A program made the translations under genes and the position numbers. Positions 1 through 6,845 of a stretch of DNA of 37,230 nucleotides are shown here, in pieces. Every line of letters starts with the position of its first letter. Position 1 is the first letter of the stretch. The notes under the pieces are model-generated. The model was not told where the DNA came from and made no database searches. It was given only the letters and a program-made list of their open reading frames with translations. The DNA is from Alphaproteobacteria bacterium (lineage in GTDB: Bacteria > Pseudomonadota > Alphaproteobacteria > UBA9219), in NCBI GenBank assembly GCA_028690155.1, contig JAQVBU010000007.1, positions 1 to 37,230 on the forward strand, written 5' to 3'.

Positions 1-204
1 ATATTCTTCCGGCTGGCGAACATCCAAAAGAAGAACGGCCTTCTTCTTTCTAAGAAGACGCTGTAAATCCTGAGCGTTAATCGTCGGCGCGGATTCTTGG
101 GAAACAATAGCGGGGCGATCTTCCGCGTTGGCTGATTGAGGCGGCAGTATCCCCCAGCAAAATGCGCAGAAAACGGGCAGAATTAAAAGGCGTAAAAAAG
201 ACAT
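1..204 (-). CDS. Rhodanese-domain protein with signal peptide (partial, C-terminus off the window)
   Basis: The 68 visible residues begin with a signal peptide (MSFLRLLILPVFCAFCWG, then AxA near residue 27), so the product should act in the periplasm. Residues 48-68 read as the start of a rhodanese domain, with LLLDVRQPEEY typical of its first strand. Rhodaneses move sulfane sulfur through an active-site cysteine; that cysteine would lie beyond the left edge and cannot be checked. The start is fixed by a strong GGAGGG Shine-Dalgarno just upstream of ATG at 204. It is the last visible gene of the minus-strand operon and lies 71 nt after a NifX-like gene, with an inverted repeat in the gap, so it may be co-transcribed or have its own control. 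Rhodanese domain: fairly sure. Link to the operon: inference. Confidence 0.75.
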   Translation of the reverse strand, partial: MSFLRLLILPVFCAFCWGILPPQSANAEDRPAIVSQESAPTINAQDLQRLLRKKKAVLLLDVRQPEEY

Positions 205-229
205 CGTAAACCCTCCATGATCGTGCCGC

Positions 230-258
230 AGAAACCTTTACTAATCTTCTAGGTTTCT
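230..258 (-). other. Inverted repeat between the NifX-like and rhodanese genes
   Basis: AGAAACCT at 230-237 pairs perfectly with AGGTTTCT at 251-258 across a 13-nt loop. No T run follows in the minus direction, so it is a poor intrinsic terminator. It may be a processing site or a protein-binding site in the only sizeable gap of this operon. Confidence 0.35.
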
Positions 259-275
259 TATGAACATTCAAGCAA

Positions 276-611
276 TTAATGATCGCAACTGTTCGAAGCC
301 GTTTGCAAAGTTCCGGCAAAATGCGCTGCGATAAGAGCCTCTGGCGTTTCAATGGGTGCGCCTGTGATAACGTCGATCCCTTTTTGCGCGAATAATTCGA
401 GAGCGCGCGGCCCCATACCGCCGCATAGGATCAGGTTGACGCCACGTTCATGAAGCCAGTTTGGCAACAAGCCGGGTTCGTGCGGCGGAGCGTCGATGTC
501 GCGTCGCGCGGTGATGGCGTTCTTGTCATCCGTTTGGATCAGAGCGAACTTGGCACAGTGGCCAAAGTGAGGGCTGAGCTTTCCGTCTTCGAGGGGGATG
601 GCGATCATCAT
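276..611 (-). CDS. NifX/NifB-type (dinitrogenase Fe-Mo cofactor family) small protein, copy 1
   Basis: This 111-residue protein has the single-domain fold of NifX, NafY and MTH1175-like proteins, which carry or bind iron-sulfur or Mo-Fe-S clusters. Visible signs are MMIAIPLEDGKLSPHFGHC at the N-terminus (family motif PHFGHC, Cys19), ILCGGMGPRA around residues 61-70 (Cys63) and a C-terminal tail with another Cys and His (SNSCDH) that could serve as ligands. The ATG at 611 overlaps the stop of the upstream ATPase gene as ATGA, which argues for translational coupling and against the longer open frame starting at 653. It is encoded with two ferredoxin-ATPases and a second NifX-like protein. No nitrogenase genes are in the window, so a nitrogen-fixation role is not supported; a cluster carrier or scaffold is the likely role. 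Confidence 0.85.
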   Translation of the reverse strand: MMIAIPLEDGKLSPHFGHCAKFALIQTDDKNAITARRDIDAPPHEPGLLPNWLHERGVNLILCGGMGPRALELFAQKGIDVITGAPIETPEALIAAHFAGTLQTASNSCDH

Positions 612-1489
612 GGTTGGTTTTCCTTTTCCATTTGTTGTTGAAAGTGTTTCCACAGGCCTTTGATGTCGGAAGCTGAGGGCGTATCGGTTTCAATCACGGC
701 CTTTGCCTGTTTTTGGGCTTGCGTGACGCCCTTGTCATAGCGAATGCGGCCAAGGACGGTTGCGCCGTTTGCTAAGGCTTGCTTTTCGATCTGCTCGGCT
801 TTTTCAGGCGCAATGTCCCATTTGTTGACGCAAATGAAGGCGGGAACCTTGAAATGCCGCGTCAGCTCCAAGGCACGCAAAAGATCGTGTTCGCCGCTTG
901 GCGTCGGCTCGGTCACGATCAGCGCGGCGCTTGCGCCTGAGATCGAGGCTATCACCGGACAGCCGATGCCGGGTGGGCCGTCGATCAGGATCATGTCGCG
1001 TTTTGTTTCTTCCGCCACGCGTCGCGCTTCCTGCCTCACCGTCGAAACTAGCCTGCCGGAATTTTCCGCAGCGATGCCCAGCCTTGCATGAACCATCGGC
1101 CCAGCGCGCGTGTCCGAGACCATCCATGCGCCGCACAGGCGTTTTTCAAGCCGGACTGCACCCTTAGGACAAAAACGGGCGCAAACGCCACAGCCTTCGC
1201 AAGCGGTCGGATCGATATGGAACGCGCCATTCGTTTCCTTGATCGCGTCAAACCGGCACAGATTCAAGCACGCGCCGCAGTTGGTGCAAAGCGCGGGGTC
1301 AATGATCGCTTCAACGCCACTCCAGAATTCATGCTTTTTTTGGATGTTTGGTGTGAGGATTAGATGCAAATCCGCCGCGTCCACGTCGCAATCGGCTAGA
1401 ACGGCGTTTTGCGCGAGAAGCGCGAAGCTGGCCGTCAAGCTCGTTTTGCCTGTTCCGCCTTTGCCGCTGATGATGACAATCTCTTTCAT
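608..1489 (-). CDS. MinD/Mrp-family P-loop ATPase with inserted 2x[4Fe-4S] ferredoxin domain, copy B
   Basis: A 293-residue cytoplasmic ATPase of the 'MinD superfamily P-loop ATPase containing an inserted ferredoxin domain' type (COG1149). The deviant Walker A motif SGKGGTGKT lies at residues 8-16, the switch-like DCDVDAAD at 33-40, and a Walker B/switch II region ILIDGPPGIGCP near 167-178. Between them lie two CxxCxxCxxxC motifs: Cys68, 71, 74 and 78, and Cys97, 100, 103 and 107, enough for two [4Fe-4S] clusters. The family is related to Nbp35/ApbC cluster carriers and is found in ORP complexes of anaerobes. The gene overlaps both neighbours by 4 nt and follows a paralogue, so the two ATPases may form a heterodimer (inference). 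Confidence 0.9.
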   Translation of the reverse strand: MKEIVIISGKGGTGKTSLTASFALLAQNAVLADCDVDAADLHLILTPNIQKKHEFWSGVEAIIDPALCTNCGACLNLCRFDAIKETNGAFHIDPTACEGCGVCARFCPKGAVRLEKRLCGAWMVSDTRAGPMVHARLGIAAENSGRLVSTVRQEARRVAEETKRDMILIDGPPGIGCPVIASISGASAALIVTEPTPSGEHDLLRALELTRHFKVPAFICVNKWDIAPEKAEQIEKQALANGATVLGRIRYDKGVTQAQKQAKAVIETDTPSASDIKGLWKHFQQQMEKENQP

Positions 1490-2316
1490 GCGGCCTCGCG
1501 GATTTTTTGCAGAAGCTTCGTGAAAACATCTTCATATTCTGGCAAGGCGTCGATGATTGTCTGTCCTTTGGCATAACTCTCGGCAATACGTCGGTCGTCG
1601 GGAATGGAGGCCAGAAGCGCGATCTTTTCGGCTTCAAGATAGGGACGAACAAGCGCGTCTTCCTTCTCGGCGCGATTGATGACAACACCAAAAGGCAAAC
1701 TTAGTTCGCGCACAACATCCACGGCAAGGCGAAGATCGTTCAAACCAAAGGGCGTTGGCTCAGTCACCAACACGACAAAATCCGCTTCGCGCAGCGTGGC
1801 TATAACAGGACACGAGGTTCCGGGCGGCGCGTCGATGATGACGAGATCACCTTGTGCCTCTTCTTTAACGGCGCGGATAAGCGGCGGAGCCAGCGCAACG
1901 CCAATATCGAGTTTGCCCTGAACAAGCGTGATCGTGTCGCAAGAGAAAGTTTCGACGACGCCAATTCGTTTATCAATTTCATGTATGGCTTTTTGCGGAC
2001 AGACGCGCATGCAGCCGCCGCAGCCGTGACACATTTCATGCGAGATCACCGGAACAGTCCCGAAAGAGACGATGGCATTAAAGGCGCAAAAATCGCTGCA
2101 CATGCCGCAGCCGTCGCATTTGGTCTCATCGACCTCAGGCACAGGAATTGTCACAATGTGTTGGCGCTTAAGATCGCCCCGCAAAAACAAATGCGCGTTC
2201 GGCGCTTCCACATCGCAATCCAACAGAAGCACAGGGCTTTTCGCCGCCAAGGCGAGATTTATCGCCAGCGTCGTTTTCCCTGTCCCGCCTTTACCGGATG
2301 CGACAGCAATCTTCAT
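1486..2316 (-). CDS. MinD/Mrp-family P-loop ATPase with inserted 2x[4Fe-4S] ferredoxin domain, copy A
   Basis: A 276-residue paralogue of the next gene. The Walker A motif SGKGGTGKT is at residues 7-15, DCDVEAPN at 33-40 and LVIIDAPPGTSCP at 158-170. The inserted ferredoxin domain has Cys67, 70, 73 and 77 and Cys96, 99, 102 and 106. ATP binding and ferredoxin clusters in one chain point to ATP-gated electron or cluster transfer; the partner is unknown. It overlaps the upstream NifX-like gene and the downstream paralogue by 4 nt each, so all four are expected in fixed stoichiometry. The CDVEAPN sequence (versus CDVDAAD in the paralogue) shows that the copies have diverged rather than being a recent duplication. 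Confidence 0.9.
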   Translation of the reverse strand: MKIAVASGKGGTGKTTLAINLALAAKSPVLLLDCDVEAPNAHLFLRGDLKRQHIVTIPVPEVDETKCDGCGMCSDFCAFNAIVSFGTVPVISHEMCHGCGGCMRVCPQKAIHEIDKRIGVVETFSCDTITLVQGKLDIGVALAPPLIRAVKEEAQGDLVIIDAPPGTSCPVIATLREADFVVLVTEPTPFGLNDLRLAVDVVRELSLPFGVVINRAEKEDALVRPYLEAEKIALLASIPDDRRIAESYAKGQTIIDALPEYEDVFTKLLQKIREAA

Positions 2317-2651
2317 GCCGAGGTGATTTCCGGCAGTTTTTCAGCTTCAAATGACGCCAAGGCTTCGGCCACAGAAACATTTTTGGCTGAATAGATTTTG
2401 ACGTGCGCCTGCTTCAATGCATTGAACGCTTTCGGGCCGCAATCGCCCGTCACCAGAACCGAGGCTCCGGCTTTAACAATGGTTTCCGCAGCCTTGATGC
2501 CTGCGCCTTGGCCTGCGTCGGCATAGGCGTTCTTGATCGCCTCAGTCGCTTTTGTTTCCGTATCATAGATCAAGAAGTACGCGGCGCGTCCAAAGCGCGG
2601 ATCCATCGGCGCGGATAAATCTTTGCCGGTTGTTGAGAAAGCAATTTTCAT
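2313..2651 (-). CDS. NifX/NifB-type (dinitrogenase Fe-Mo cofactor family) small protein, copy 2
   Basis: A 112-residue single-domain protein of the NifX/MTH1175 family. Diagnostic segments are MKIAFSTTGKDLSAPMDPRFGR at the N-terminus and LVTGDCGPKAF near residues 67-75 (Cys71). The ATG at 2651 is chosen because it overlaps the stop of the DUF134 gene (ATGA) and has AAAGGA about 9 nt upstream; a start 18 nt further up is open but less likely. It differs clearly from the other NifX-like protein of the operon and lacks its Cys-rich tail. As with ORP-type proteins, binding of a metal or iron-sulfur cluster is the probable role, supplied by the adjacent ATPases. The cluster type cannot be read from sequence. 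Confidence 0.87.
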   Translation of the reverse strand: MKIAFSTTGKDLSAPMDPRFGRAAYFLIYDTETKATEAIKNAYADAGQGAGIKAAETIVKAGASVLVTGDCGPKAFNALKQAHVKIYSAKNVSVAEALASFEAEKLPEITSA

Positions 2652-2971
2652 TTCTTTTTTCCTTTGCATGTTATGGGCGGTTCAATCCGCTCAAAATCGC
2701 CGCCTTCGATTTCCAGAGCGCCGCCCTCGATAATGGCCTTGGCAACAGCTTTGCGCGCGCTGGAGAGGATGCGCGAGAAAGTCGGGCGCGAGATGCCCAT
2801 TAACTTCGCAGCTTCTTCCTGCTCCATGTTTTTATAGTCGGACAGATGCAGGGCTTCGTATTCCTCATCCTTCAGCTTGACGACTTCCAGATCGCACAGC
2901 GGGATCCCGCGTGGCTTGAAGAACCGCGCCATCGGGCTTGATCGGACAAGGCGGCATTTGCGAGGGCGCAT
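2648..2971 (-). CDS. DUF134 family helix-turn-helix protein
   Basis: A 107-residue protein of the UPF0251/DUF134 family (COG1342). The N-terminal part has MRPRKCRLVRSSP and FFKPRGIPL, typical of the family. A predicted helix-turn-helix follows at about residues 50-75 (EEAAKLMGISRPTFSRIL), resembling a sigma-factor region 4 helix-turn-helix. Members commonly sit beside NifX-like and ferredoxin-ATPase genes and are presumed regulators, although DNA targets are largely unknown. Here it lies 3 nt after the CcdA-like gene and overlaps the NifX-like gene by 4 nt. It may control the operon, for example through the palindrome at 4395-4414, but nothing in the sequence proves that. The tail is lysine-rich. 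Confidence 0.85.
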   Translation of the reverse strand: MRPRKCRLVRSSPMARFFKPRGIPLCDLEVVKLKDEEYEALHLSDYKNMEQEEAAKLMGISRPTFSRILSSARKAVAKAIIEGGALEIEGGDFERIEPPITCKGKKK

Positions 2972-2974
2972 GAT

Positions 2975-3673
2975 TTAGATCCATTCCCCGATCATAGCGA
3001 CGCCGAGGCCAAGGATAAGCAAACCCGCAATCAGATGCAGATAACGAATGTTTTTATCCTTCCAATCCTGCACGTCTTCGACGCGGCTTAGACCCATATA
3101 AACCACCAGCGTAATCAGCAGCATCGGCGAGATGAAGATCACGTTGTAGAGAAGCAATGTCGGTAAGGTTTTGATGATATCCATCACGGACAACAATCCG
3201 CCCAAAATGATATAAGGGCCGATGGTGCAAGGCAGAAGAAACAGCGTGACCAAAAGGCCGACGACAAAAGCTCCCGCAGGCGACGTGACTTTTGCAATCA
3301 GTGCCTTGACCTTTGGCCGCCAACTGACGGGCATTTCTGTGCCAAAGCTGCCAACCTTGTAGGCGAAGAAATCCTTGATCTGAAGCGCACCCAAGATGAC
3401 AGCAACGCCGCCAAGCCCCTTATACAGGAACGGGCGTACCCATGTGATCCCCTGCACAAGTTGGAAGGACTTAATAATAAACAAGCCATAGATCAGATAC
3501 ATGATGAACACGGCCAAGCTGAACGAAAGCCCAGCCCAGATGATGTTCGCTTTCTTATGCGGATTATAGGCGATGATGGATACCAGCAGCATCGTCAGCA
3601 CCGCAAACTCGCAGGGATTCACCGCATCGACAAGCGCGAGCGAGATAACTTTTCCTAAAGAGACTACTTCCAT
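2975..3673 (-). CDS. CcdA/DsbD-type thiol-disulfide membrane protein
   Basis: A 232-residue polytopic inner-membrane protein with about six hydrophobic segments. Two cysteines sit in the family positions: NPCEF (Cys21) near the start of the first helix and LLPCTIGPY (Cys149) in a later helix. CcdA and DsbD carry electrons from cytoplasmic thioredoxin across the membrane through such a cysteine pair to a periplasmic thioredoxin-like acceptor. The gene just upstream encodes a secreted CxxC protein, the natural acceptor, 11 nt away. The operon therefore seems to include its own route for exporting reducing power. No cytochrome c maturation genes are nearby, so a standard ccdA role is less likely than a service to this operon (inference). 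Confidence 0.85.
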   Translation of the reverse strand: MEVVSLGKVISLALVDAVNPCEFAVLTMLLVSIIAYNPHKKANIIWAGLSFSLAVFIMYLIYGLFIIKSFQLVQGITWVRPFLYKGLGGVAVILGALQIKDFFAYKVGSFGTEMPVSWRPKVKALIAKVTSPAGAFVVGLLVTLFLLPCTIGPYIILGGLLSVMDIIKTLPTLLLYNVIFISPMLLITLVVYMGLSRVEDVQDWKDKNIRYLHLIAGLLILGLGVAMIGEWI

Positions 3674-3684
3674 AACAACCTCCC

Positions 3685-4362
3685 TTAATCACGCAGCAAA
3701 AGCCAACCGTTGAAGGCACAGGCCTTGGCAAAAACAACCTTGTCGTCCGACAGGGCGACCTCTTTTTCGGCAGATGGTGCACAACCTTGCGGCTCAGTCC
3801 CATCAACCACAAACGCTTTGATCGCGTTGCTTTCTTGTGACTCCATATTCTTACGAATAGCCACGCGGTTCTTGAACCAAATCTTTGGCAAACGCGGCAA
3901 ATCGGCTAAAGGCAGCGACATGAAAGGACGTGCCCCAGCAGGCAGCACCACACCGTTGCCCTTGTTTTTGGCAATTAGCGAATCCATTTTTTCCAAAATG
4001 GGCGTATCACCCACGACCGCGCCGCCTTTCTTGCCTTCGGTCACAACCATTGGCACACCAAGGCCTGTATCAAATTGCTTGTCATAGGCCATCAAAAGCG
4101 GAGCGTTCGCATTGTCGCGGTAAATCTCATATTCAATGACGAGAAGATTGCTTTGCCGAATTTTCTGTTTCAGCAAAACAGGATCGACATTCGCGCAATG
4201 GGGACAGCCGATGCCGGTGAAATAGACGAAAGACGTTACATCGCTCATCAAGGGCTTCGTAACGCTTGATGCCTGTGGTTCCGCCGCCTGTGCGCCACCA
4301 ACCGAAAAAATGAAGGACAAACACGCGCCAACAAGAACGTACCTGAAAGTCGACTTCCTCAT
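3685..4362 (-). CDS. Secreted thioredoxin-like CPHC protein
   Basis: A 225-residue protein with a signal peptide ending near AQA at residue 26. A thioredoxin-fold motif FTGIGCPHC follows, with the redox pair Cys53 and Cys56, and GVPMVV farther on supplies the expected cis-proline. The C-terminal third holds two more cysteines (PQGCAP and AKACAF), perhaps a second disulfide. ATG 4362 is preferred because a clear signal peptide and the sequence AAAGGATC lie there; the open frame extends another 282 nt upstream but that part has no protein-like character and crosses the promoter. It is the first gene of the operon and is likely the periplasmic partner of the CcdA-like protein 11 nt downstream. 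The substrate is unknown; the secreted rhodanese of the same operon is a candidate. Confidence 0.82.
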   Translation of the reverse strand: MRKSTFRYVLVGACLSFIFSVGGAQAAEPQASSVTKPLMSDVTSFVYFTGIGCPHCANVDPVLLKQKIRQSNLLVIEYEIYRDNANAPLLMAYDKQFDTGLGVPMVVTEGKKGGAVVGDTPILEKMDSLIAKNKGNGVVLPAGARPFMSLPLADLPRLPKIWFKNRVAIRKNMESQESNAIKAFVVDGTEPQGCAPSAEKEVALSDDKVVFAKACAFNGWLLLRD

Positions 4363-4394
4363 GCCCAAGATCCTTTCTTCACAATCAAACCCAC

Positions 4395-4439
4395 TTATGA
4401 ACAGGCGTTCATAATCGTCTTGGGCGTGTTCTTTGTCAA
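4395..4439 (-). promoter_or_regulatory. Promoter with palindromic operator for the NifX/ATPase operon
   Basis: On the minus strand TTGACA (4439-4434) is followed after 17 nt by GATTAT (4416-4411, 4 of 6 matches to TATAAT). A perfect 8-bp palindrome TTATGAAC-AGGC-GTTCATAA (4395-4414) overlaps the -10 and the expected start point. This is the layout of a repressor site, and its GAAC/GTTC halves resemble TetR-type operators. The leader to the first ATG is about 40 nt. The regulator is not identified. Confidence 0.6.
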
Positions 4440-4571
4440 GGTTCTGTTGTGAGGCCCGCAAAAGCACGGAAAGAAAGAGGGGATTGCAAGCAAATTTCTT
4501 TTGTGTCATTCTCACCAAACGATGAAAAACATTGCCACCCTCATTATTCGAACGACGCACACGTGCACGAC

Positions 4572-4618
4572 GACGGCCTAGGGCCGTCACATATTTCTGC
4601 GCCCGCATACGGGCTTTT
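4572..4618 (+). promoter_or_regulatory. Tandem hairpins in the thrS leader, possible attenuator
   Basis: GACGGCC (4572-4578) pairs with GGCCGTC (4582-4588), and GCCCG (4601-4605) pairs with CGGGC (4610-4614), which is followed by TTTT. A third weak stem, GTCC with GGAC, lies at about 4647-4659. The second hairpin looks like a short terminator about 110 nt before the thrS start. I see no T-box specifier or T-box consensus. Control of thrS by readthrough is a guess. Confidence 0.3.
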
Positions 4619-4726
4619 CCAACACATTGCTGACCGATCTCCACCGTCCTTACCGGACTGTTGGTGACGATCCTTTATTATTTCGCCGGAACGCAAGGCC
4701 GATCCGGCGCTGTTATGGAGATAAAA

Positions 4727-6511
4727 ATGTCCGAACAAAACGCCGATCTCGACCGCCTTCGCCATTCAGCCTCGCACGTCATGGCCGAAGCTGTTTTAAG
4801 CCTTTTCCCCGATGCAAAAATCGCCATCGGCCCCGCCATCGAAGACGGGTTTTACTATGATTTCGATCTTTCCCGTCCCTTGGTGCCTGAGGATTTGGAA
4901 GCAATCGAAACCAAAATGAAAGAGCTTCTCGCCAAGAAAAGCGCTTTCGTGGTCAACGAAGTCTCCCTTGCCGAAGCCCGCAAGCTTTTCGCCGATCAGC
5001 CCTATAAGCTTGAGATGATCACCGATCTTGCCGAAAAACAAGGCGAGGCACTGAAACTTTCTACCTACACCCAAGGTGGGTTCACCGATCTTTGCAAAGG
5101 CCCCCATGTGGCCAGCACCGACGAAATACCGGCAGAAGGCGTGAAGCTTCTCAGCATCGCAGGTGCCTATTGGCGCGGCGATAGCGCGAAAGCCATGCTG
5201 CAACGCATTTACGGAACCGCGTGGCCCAGCAAAGTTGAATTGGACGCTTATTTATTTCGCATCGAAGAAGCCAAAAAGCGCGATCACCGCATGCTCGGCA
5301 AACAGCTGGAGCTGTTTTCAACCAACGATCAGGTGGGCGCAGGGCTTATTCTCTGGCAACCGAACGGCGCGATGGTGAGGCACATCGCCGAAAGCTTCAG
5401 CAAAGAAGCGCATTTGCTGAATGGCTATCAGCTTGTCTATACCCCACATATCGGGCGCGCCAATTTGTGGGAAACTTCGGGGCATCTGAGTTTTTATCGT
5501 GACAGCATGTATCGCCCCATGCAGATCGACGAAGACGAATATTTCGTCAAACCGATGAATTGCCCATTCCACATGCACATTTATAAGAACCGCCCGCGCT
5601 CCTATCGCGAATTGCCGTTGCGCTTGGCCGAATTTGGAACCGTGTATCGCTATGAGTTCAGTGGCGCGCTGCACGGCCTGACCCGCGTGCGCGGCTTTAC
5701 GCAGGACGATGCGCACATTTTCTGCCGCCCCGATCAGGTTGACGCCGAGATTTCGCGCGCACTCGAATTCTCGCTTTATATTCTGCGCAGTTTCGGGCTT
5801 GAAGACTTCACGGCCTATATCTCGACCAAGCCCGAAGGCAAGTGCATCGGCGGCGATGATGATTGGGTCTTGGCGACCAAGGCGCTTGAAAAGGCGGTCG
5901 AGAAAGCCGGTCTTTCGTTCAAATATGACCTCGGCGGCGGCGCGTTCTATGGCCCGAAGATCGACTTGAAACTCAACGACGCGCTTGGTCGCCAATGGCA
6001 GCTCAGCACCATCCAGTTCGACTTCAACCTCTCGGAACGCTTTGAACTCGAATACATTGCGGAGGATGGATCGGCCAAACGCCCCTTAATGGTGCATCGC
6101 GCCCTTTTTGGAAGCGTCGAGCGCTTTATGGGAATCTTGATCGAACATTACGCAGGAGCATTCCCGTTCTGGCTCGCGCCGGTTCAGGCTGTTTTGGTTC
6201 CCATCACGGACGATGTGATGGACTATGCCCGTGATGTCGAGGAAGCCTTGATCGACGCAGGGATTCGCGTGGAGATTGACGCTCGCAACGACCGCATGCA
6301 GGCCAAGATCCGCGACGCGCAGATGAGGAAGATTCCAAAGATCCTTGTAATTGGTCGCAAAGAGGCGGAAGGAAAGCTTGTCTCATTGCGAGATCGCGAC
6401 GAGGGAGATTTGGGACAAATCAAACTGGACGCTTTAATCGCACAGTTTCAAACCGCCAACGCTGCCGGACGCCCAAAGCGTCTGGATAAGCGCCGAGTGT
6501 CTGAGCGGTAA
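4727..6511 (+). CDS. thrS: Threonine--tRNA ligase lacking the N-terminal TGS domain
   Basis: Charges tRNA-Thr with threonine. The 594-residue product starts directly with the editing domain: HSASH at 13-17 and CKGPH at 123-127 are the usual zinc-binding editing residues. The class II catalytic core follows, with zinc ligands in NCPFHM (Cys279), DDAHIF (His330) and VHRALFGS (His457), motif 2 (YRYEFSG) and motif 3 (GSVERF). A C-terminal anticodon-binding domain completes it. Typical bacterial ThrRS (about 640 residues) begins with a TGS domain of about 60 residues; none is encoded here in any upstream frame. ATG 4727 is chosen for GGAG at 4717-4720, 6 nt away; an upstream start at 4661 would add only unrelated residues. 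All catalytic and editing residues checked are present, so it should be functional. A tRNA-Thr gene lies downstream. Confidence 0.95.
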   Translation: MSEQNADLDRLRHSASHVMAEAVLSLFPDAKIAIGPAIEDGFYYDFDLSRPLVPEDLEAIETKMKELLAKKSAFVVNEVSLAEARKLFADQPYKLEMITDLAEKQGEALKLSTYTQGGFTDLCKGPHVASTDEIPAEGVKLLSIAGAYWRGDSAKAMLQRIYGTAWPSKVELDAYLFRIEEAKKRDHRMLGKQLELFSTNDQVGAGLILWQPNGAMVRHIAESFSKEAHLLNGYQLVYTPHIGRANLWETSGHLSFYRDSMYRPMQIDEDEYFVKPMNCPFHMHIYKNRPRSYRELPLRLAEFGTVYRYEFSGALHGLTRVRGFTQDDAHIFCRPDQVDAEISRALEFSLYILRSFGLEDFTAYISTKPEGKCIGGDDDWVLATKALEKAVEKAGLSFKYDLGGGAFYGPKIDLKLNDALGRQWQLSTIQFDFNLSERFELEYIAEDGSAKRPLMVHRALFGSVERFMGILIEHYAGAFPFWLAPVQAVLVPITDDVMDYARDVEEALIDAGIRVEIDARNDRMQAKIRDAQMRKIPKILVIGRKEAEGKLVSLRDRDEGDLGQIKLDALIAQFQTANAAGRPKRLDKRRVSER

Positions 6512-6770: not shown

Positions 6771-6845
6771 TGGTGCTGCCGATAGGAATTGAACCTACGA
6801 CCCCGTCCTTACCAAGGACGTGCTCTACCCCTGAGCTACGGCAGC
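6771..6845 (-). tRNA. tRNA-Thr (anticodon GGT), CCA encoded
   Basis: On the minus strand the sequence folds into a complete cloverleaf of 75 nt. The acceptor stem is GCTGCCG with CGGCAGC, the D stem GCTC/GAGC, and the anticodon stem CGTCC/GGACG around the loop TTGGTAA. The T arm is GTAGG-TTCAATT-CCTAT, and ACCA closes the 3' end. Anticodon GGT reads ACC and ACT. The D-loop is short (AGGGGTA), hence 75 nt with CCA. It lies about 260 nt beyond thrS, convergent to it. Confidence 0.97.

Follow-up and report, generated by a model that had tools for sequence, protein, structure and literature searches.

The first 4440 nucleotides of the DNA analysed here carry a row of eight genes in which parts of the orange-protein (ORP) type stand together with a predicted DUF134 regulator and a pair of likely thiol proteins, one in the membrane and one secreted. 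This DNA, called the window, is a 37,230-nucleotide stretch of contig C30, taken from the contig's first base, in a 2.1-Mb alphaproteobacterial genome (G000). Related genomes are labelled G and loci L. Calling of open reading frames (ORFs) confirmed all eight genes in 1-4440, every one on the minus strand. The features are listed below in the order of transcription, with the control sites placed ahead of the genes.

4411-4439, minus strand: sigma-70-like promoter, TTGACA-17-GATTAT
4395-4414, read on the minus strand: candidate DUF134 operator, a perfect 20-bp palindrome, TTATGAAC-GCCT-GTTCATAA, over the -10 box
3685-4362, minus strand: CPHC, a secreted thioredoxin-like protein of 225 aa with a signal-like N-terminus and a CPHC motif
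2975-3673, minus strand: CcdA/DsbD-like membrane protein of 232 aa, with Cys21 and Cys149
2648-2971, minus strand: DUF134, a predicted helix-turn-helix regulator (PF02001, 93.7 bits against a cut-off of 27)
2313-2651, minus strand: NifX1, ORP-like (PF02579)
1486-2316, minus strand: ATPase1, MinD-type, with an inserted 2[4Fe-4S] ferredoxin (PF01656 + Fer4)
608-1489, minus strand: ATPase2, MinD-type, with an inserted 2[4Fe-4S] ferredoxin (PF01656 + Fer4)
276-611, minus strand: NifX2, with its ATG at 611, resembling the C-terminal domain of MrpORP (PF02579)
1-204, minus strand: truncated start of a rhodanese-like gene, a fragment of 68 aa, probably outside the system

Overlaps of 4 nt join DUF134 to NifX1, NifX1 to ATPase1, ATPase1 to ATPase2, and ATPase2 to NifX2, and the gap between CcdA and DUF134 is 3 nt, as the original prediction had described for these eight same-strand genes. 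Seven of the genes are under purifying selection; in the comparison with G017, the dN/dS of CcdA (0.025) is the lowest of the seven. The rhodanese-like gene begins 71 nt past NifX2 and is incomplete because the window begins where contig C30 begins. It is a putative rhodanese, named from the motif LLLDVRQPEEY. The fragment, CPHC, and the CcdA-like protein all matched no Pfam family at 0.01, and tblastn gave no match to the rhodanese beside the module in G017 or G024, the two nearest relatives. Although it had been proposed as a member of the system, the rhodanese-like gene is probably not part of it.

NifX1 matches the D. gigas ORP structure 2wfb (E 6.1e-19). For NifX2 the match is to the MrpORP model (E 1.1e-35), where it covers the C-terminal domain, positions 260-365, at 123.7 bits against a cut-off of 450. 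The Di-Nase motifs of MrpORP are defined in the available text of PMC6345978 as CXHFGHCE, TPPPHXPGXXP, and CDH, and they appear in NifX2 as SPHFGHC, APPHEPGLLP, and a C-terminal CDH. The first cysteine of the HFGHC motif is a serine in the window; the motif reads CQHFGHC in G017 and CSHFGHC in G024. Together with the two ferredoxin-insert ATPases, these matches bear out the ORP-type parts that had been predicted. A search for the sigma-54 site TGGCAC-N5-TTGCW with up to 2 mismatches gave none in 2756-5152, and the whole window has 15 against 17 expected by chance.

The ORP complex of Desulfovibrio is composed of Orp3, Orp4, Orp5, Orp8, and MrpORP. In the parts of PMC6345978 available, MrpORP hands Fe-S clusters to Orp3-Orp4-Orp8 in vitro, and the complex is "putatively involved in cell division". 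As far as that text extends, the window shares with it a set of neighbouring genes for two ATPases that contain ferredoxin domains and for an ORP-like NifX protein, and the NifX2 domain of the window is a domain of MrpORP. The window differs in that the two-domain MrpORP is not encoded in the operon, that DUF134 replaces the sigma-54 activator, that the promoter is sigma-70-like with a palindrome where the ORP complex has sigma-54-dependent promoters of divergent operons, and that a CcdA/CPHC pair stands in front. A further trait of the ORP complex is the Mo-Cu sulfide cluster on the ORP protein. Compared with MrpORP and the Mrp/NBP35 Fe-S carriers, NifX2 is the Di-Nase half, and the NTPase half is found in G173 beside a thioredoxin (Trx)-CcdA fusion and DUF134. 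In the window, however, the halves are unjoined, no other Mrp-type NTPase was found among the eight genes, and both ATPases have ferredoxin inserts. To call it an ORP operon is wrong on two counts, since a two-domain MrpORP is missing and the promoter is of another type; the view that it would work like an ORP module stands.

A second module lies in the same genome at C23:96038-98757. It has the order DUF134-NifX1-ATPase1-ATPase2-NifX2 and lacks CcdA, CPHC, and rhodanese. Relatives of ATPase2 with at least 63% identity mark six modules in five genomes among the 34 genomes of the order. CPHC and CcdA stand in front, in the same order, in three of the six (window, G017, and G024). The overlaps that had been taken as the sign of a conserved unit are real, but the eight genes are no fixed set. 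The G018 module is incomplete because its contig stops within ATPase1, and no CcdA turned up in the whole of G009 (79% complete) or G018 (62% complete). In a tree of 12 ATPase2 sequences, the three modules with CcdA group together as a clade (support 0.918) within the alphaproteobacterial part, so a single gain of the CcdA pair in the lineage of the window would be the simplest account.

The region past the G017 module (G017:C38, L122:1-3242) holds in a row, about 2-5 kb away, an ArsR-like regulator, an ArsP_1 permease, a CDF-like transporter (CDF, cation diffusion facilitator), and a small redox-disulfide-like protein. The ArsP_1 label was tested; the others are tentative. After the row comes part of a NifX2 copy (65.6% identity over 64 residues), outside any clear gene.

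Scanning named genomes with the CcdA alignment gave 21 loci, including those of G017 and G024. The 19 loci outside the order belong to eight DPANN archaea, one other archaeon, one Altiarchaeota, two methanogens, three candidate phyla radiation (CPR) bacteria, and four other bacteria. In six of the 19 (L022, L024, L026, L028, L030, and L031), CcdA has DUF134, NifX, or ATPase genes nearby. DUF134 is present in 12 of these 19 genomes as 15 copies, five of which lie no more than 4 kb from CcdA, where 0.12 would be expected; all expected linkage values assume random placement. In the Diapherotrites-MAG phylum (MAG, metagenome-assembled genome; 87 genomes), 13 of the 32 CcdA matches at 1e-50 or better are within 5 kb of DUF134 or PF02579 (0.59 expected), a count from which 4 of 77 CcdA rows were omitted as second halves or fragments. 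In the Nanoarchaeota-MAG phylum (237 genomes), 12 of the 37 matches at 1e-70 or better are within 5 kb of DUF134, the only family counted there (0.34 expected). The two close-relative cut-offs differ, and the latter was set after the list had been seen; with the cut-offs swapped, the counts are 12 of 52 for Nanoarchaeota at 1e-50 and 12 of 25 for Diapherotrites at 1e-70. The strong rows are not all independent because close relatives are included (G087, G088, G089, and G091 share a layout). The neighbourhood search that had been called for finds CcdA/CPHC with DUF134/NifX again in other phyla, above random placement.

Within the alphaproteobacterial class, a CcdA match at 1e-10 occurs in 8 of 289 genomes. 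G173, from another family of the class, has in a row a 74-aa Gly/Cys-rich ORF (DUF5320-like by eye), an Mrp/NBP35 ATPase, a Trx-CcdA fusion, and DUF134. The ATPase matches PF10609 (E 2.3e-96) and the MrpORP model (E 4.8e-106, 355 bits, under the cut-off of 450). The CcdA of G173 is far from that of the window in the tree, and CcdA and DUF134 would thus have been joined at least twice in the class.

Neighbours at the other loci include CDF fused to a NifX domain, ZIP, ferritin-like proteins, superoxide reductase, peroxiredoxin, and ArsP_1 permeases, and they point to metal and oxidant handling. At L095:5397-6614 and L096:8507-9724, both in the Diapherotrites phylum, a CDF protein with a C-terminal NifX-type domain (PF01545 + PF02579) lies inside a DUF134/NifX/ATPase cluster. 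This fusion would tie NifX domains to metal transport.

The sigma-70-like promoter is not above chance by itself, with one site in 1-4700 against a shuffle mean of 3.5. The single promoter that had been predicted is nevertheless supported by conservation at all five promoters looked at: TTGAC[AT]-17-[GC]ATTAT at those of G000 C30, G000 C23, G017, and G024, and TTGACA-17-TATATT at that of G173. When up to 3 mismatches are allowed, the candidate operator is still the sole match in the window (0.06 expected), and the whole genome has two perfect sites, one per module. The perfect 20-bp palindrome TTATGAAC-N4-GTTCATAA lies upstream of CPHC in the window, G017, and G024. It is contained within a 32-bp perfect palindrome at the C23 module, and G009 has two near-copies. 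The operator ahead of the CcdA pair is of the same kind as that of the C23 module, which is without CcdA. Allowing up to 1 mismatch, 25 family genomes gave 10 sites in 7 genomes, and the reversed control pattern gave 0. Eight promoters have sites: three before CPHC (window, G017, and G024), four before DUF134 (C23, G009, G019, and G021), and one before DUF5320 (G007). The site of G173 has T/A inner letters. Since the site heads operons with or without CcdA, and with or without ATPases, DUF134 or DUF5320 is its usual companion. DUF134 probably binds the palindrome, and a role as repressor of the operon may be assigned to it because the site lies over the -10 box.

Three further sites can be described individually. 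In G007 (L119:5990-6362), two palindromes 55 bp apart precede DUF5320 alone; the spacing of the pair in G009 is 56 bp. In G021 (L121:5215-5838), DUF134 and DUF5320 form one ORF behind the palindrome, and no ATPase2 module was found in the genome. In G128 (L097:5660-5679), a copy of the palindrome with 1 mismatch lies inside the cluster, right before a Trx-CcdA fusion, which suggests separate control of the relay.

The archaeal sites were counted at 80 DUF134 loci (46 of 46 of one phylum list and the top 34 of 74 of the other), two of which have too little upstream sequence. The site is upstream of DUF134 at 48 of the 78 loci at up to 2 mismatches; 200 shuffled arms gave 0.45 on average and 4 at most. 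T/A was allowed at the inner letters only once archaeal sites were known, and loci unseen before the motif was fixed have the site in 37 of 61 cases at two mismatches. The strict alphaproteobacterial arm gave 41 of 78 at three mismatches, and 23 of 80 when confined to the nearest 400 bp (200 unfiltered shuffled arms, mean 0.66, maximum 19). Either arm at three mismatches gave 52 of 78 (control mean 4.6, maximum 18). At 19 loci with both CcdA and DUF134, the two genes share a strand in 17 and the operator is present in 15. The loci were mostly chosen for CcdA linkage, with G173 taken from the CcdA search and L040 a repeat, so the counts show strand and operator, not linkage frequency. Sixteen loci have CcdA and no DUF134; the site is present in two, in neither case beside CcdA.

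A threonyl-tRNA synthetase gene, assigned by eye, lies divergent beside the window operon at 4661-6511, with tRNA-Thr GGT beyond it at 6771-6845. A similar-looking gene, also assigned by eye, lies near the DUF134/Trx-CcdA operon of G173 (L107:2683-4479).

All 20 relatives examined keep both Cys21 and Cys149 of the CcdA-like protein. Cys149 is aligned to the second cysteine of DsbD, at a probability of only 39.7. Both cysteines of the CPHC motif are invariant in 8 of 8 sequences (CPHC, CRHC, or CSNC). CPHC and CcdA are fused into one protein in L021, L022, L023, L029, and L032, which suggests that the two act together. The invariant membrane cysteines and the fusions are most naturally read as an outward electron relay. 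In known CcdA/DsbD thiol relays, too, the membrane protein has two invariant cysteines and is either paired with a secreted thioredoxin-like protein or fused to it. The window member, in contrast, falls under every curated model and has a NifX/ATPase/DUF134 module as its genomic partner. DsbD clusters with flavinylated proteins, as far as described in the available text of PMC8238504, are a different partnership.

The interpretation preferred here, with moderate confidence, is a metal-sulfur (probably iron-sulfur) homeostasis operon under the control of DUF134, with an ORP-like module as its base and an outward thiol arm. It starts from gene content, order, recurrence, the palindrome, and purifying selection, all of which are read directly from the DNA. 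DUF134 would bind the palindrome over the -10 box and hold the operon off until its signal comes. In the cytoplasm, we infer, the two ferredoxin-ATPases would supply the two NifX proteins with clusters or mend those already there, with iron as the putative metal. CcdA would move thiol electrons across the membrane to CPHC, the outward direction being likewise presumed, and CPHC would maintain a target outside the cytoplasm, be it a sulfur species, a metal site, or a protein thiol, in the reduced state.

Several results weigh against this interpretation. The CcdA-like protein of the window matches no curated family at 0.01. Its 20 relatives match SfLAP in 13 cases and ArsG in 8, against 4 for DsbD_2, 1 for DsbD_TM, and 6 for DsbD, and the DsbD-model matches fall under the model cut-offs. 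Fold searches neither confirmed the CcdA fold nor settled CPHC. Three of the six modules of the order (C23, G009, and G018) are without CPHC-CcdA. Weaker CcdA homologues are linked in only 1 of 11 and 1 of 30 cases in the Diapherotrites phylum, and in the Nanoarchaeota phylum in 0 of 58 of the middle class and 6 of 54 of the weaker class. The site is missing at two mismatches from 30 of the 78 archaeal DUF134 loci, and even at three mismatches from 4 of the 19 loci with both genes. In G007 it precedes DUF5320, and no DUF134 match was found in the 12-kb stretch examined.

Because SfLAP, ArsG, and DsbD are all matched by relatives and the curated models are equivocal, a transporter stays a rival. 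The operon would then confer metalloid or soft-metal resistance, the CcdA-like protein being an ArsG-type or LysE-superfamily exporter with CPHC as thiol partner and NifX/ATPase as metal buffer. Besides the SfLAP and ArsG matches (best ArsG E 2e-7), this account can draw on L021, which exceeds the SfLAP cut-off (35.5 against 35 bits), and on ArsP_1 permeases 2-5 kb off in G017 and G024 and within the L028 cluster. It is nonetheless unlikely. The likeness to the ArsG efflux permease (NF040495) is a weak profile match in those 8 relatives, and the best score among relatives scanned singly (L107) is 29 bits against a cut-off of 200; the window protein is unmatched, and the gene neighbours differ. 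The permeases of G017 and G024 fall under the SaoE and Cu/Zn efflux cut-offs, and both transmembrane cysteines are invariant, with a thioredoxin-like partner fused in five relatives.

A response to oxygen or oxidants shares its parts with the preferred interpretation and differs in purpose, which would be stress and not supply. Cluster damage would relieve DUF134, and the operon would repair Fe-S proteins while CcdA/CPHC mend extracytoplasmic thiols. L022 and L107 have superoxide reductase near the cluster, L026 has peroxiredoxin after CcdA, and L014, L098, and L103 have ferritin-like proteins, all of which fit this account. The window operon, however, has none of these genes, and each was seen at only a few of the inspected loci; the account is rather improbable. 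It is very improbable that CcdA/CPHC are passengers, that is, a general thiol-disulfide or cytochrome c system lying by an ordinary ORP-like module. The pair is indeed absent from half of the modules of the order, and the possibility of variable passengers raised by the original prediction is right to the extent that the pair is a variable addition. However, its linkage is well over random placement in two archaeal phyla, it was apparently joined independently in two alphaproteobacterial lineages, and it is located behind the operator. Judged by these patterns, the CcdA pair is a non-random addition to an ORP-like module and not a chance passenger.

Beyond the homeostasis operon itself, a broader proposal is offered tentatively. 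DUF134 may regulate an ancient metal-sulfur regulon with one operator, TTATGAAY-N4-RTTCATAA, in alphaproteobacteria and DPANN archaea. Cytoplasmic cluster biogenesis would be coupled in it to outward thiol electrons that mobilise sulfur or metal outside for ORP/NifX clusters.

ORP operons, MrpORP, and CcdA/DsbD relays are already known kinds. No description of the gene combination or of the palindrome was found in listings and the openings of abstracts from open-licence PubMed Central papers, or in the available parts of PMC6345978, PMC8238504, and PMC9144182. DUF134 or COG1342 is mentioned only in passing in the accessible passages of PMC7565180, PMC8347963, and PMC3622292.

What the ORP complex does has yet to be settled, judging by the available text of PMC6345978, and the thiol relay and the conserved palindrome are direct handles. 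They give access to the signal of DUF134, to the genes that it controls, and to whether cluster assembly in anaerobes needs electrons outside the membrane. DUF134, a Pfam family of unknown function, gains a candidate binding site, and several DPANN archaeal genes that lack annotation receive a proposed function. The same pairing behind a similar switch site in these tiny archaea hints at one shared control system.

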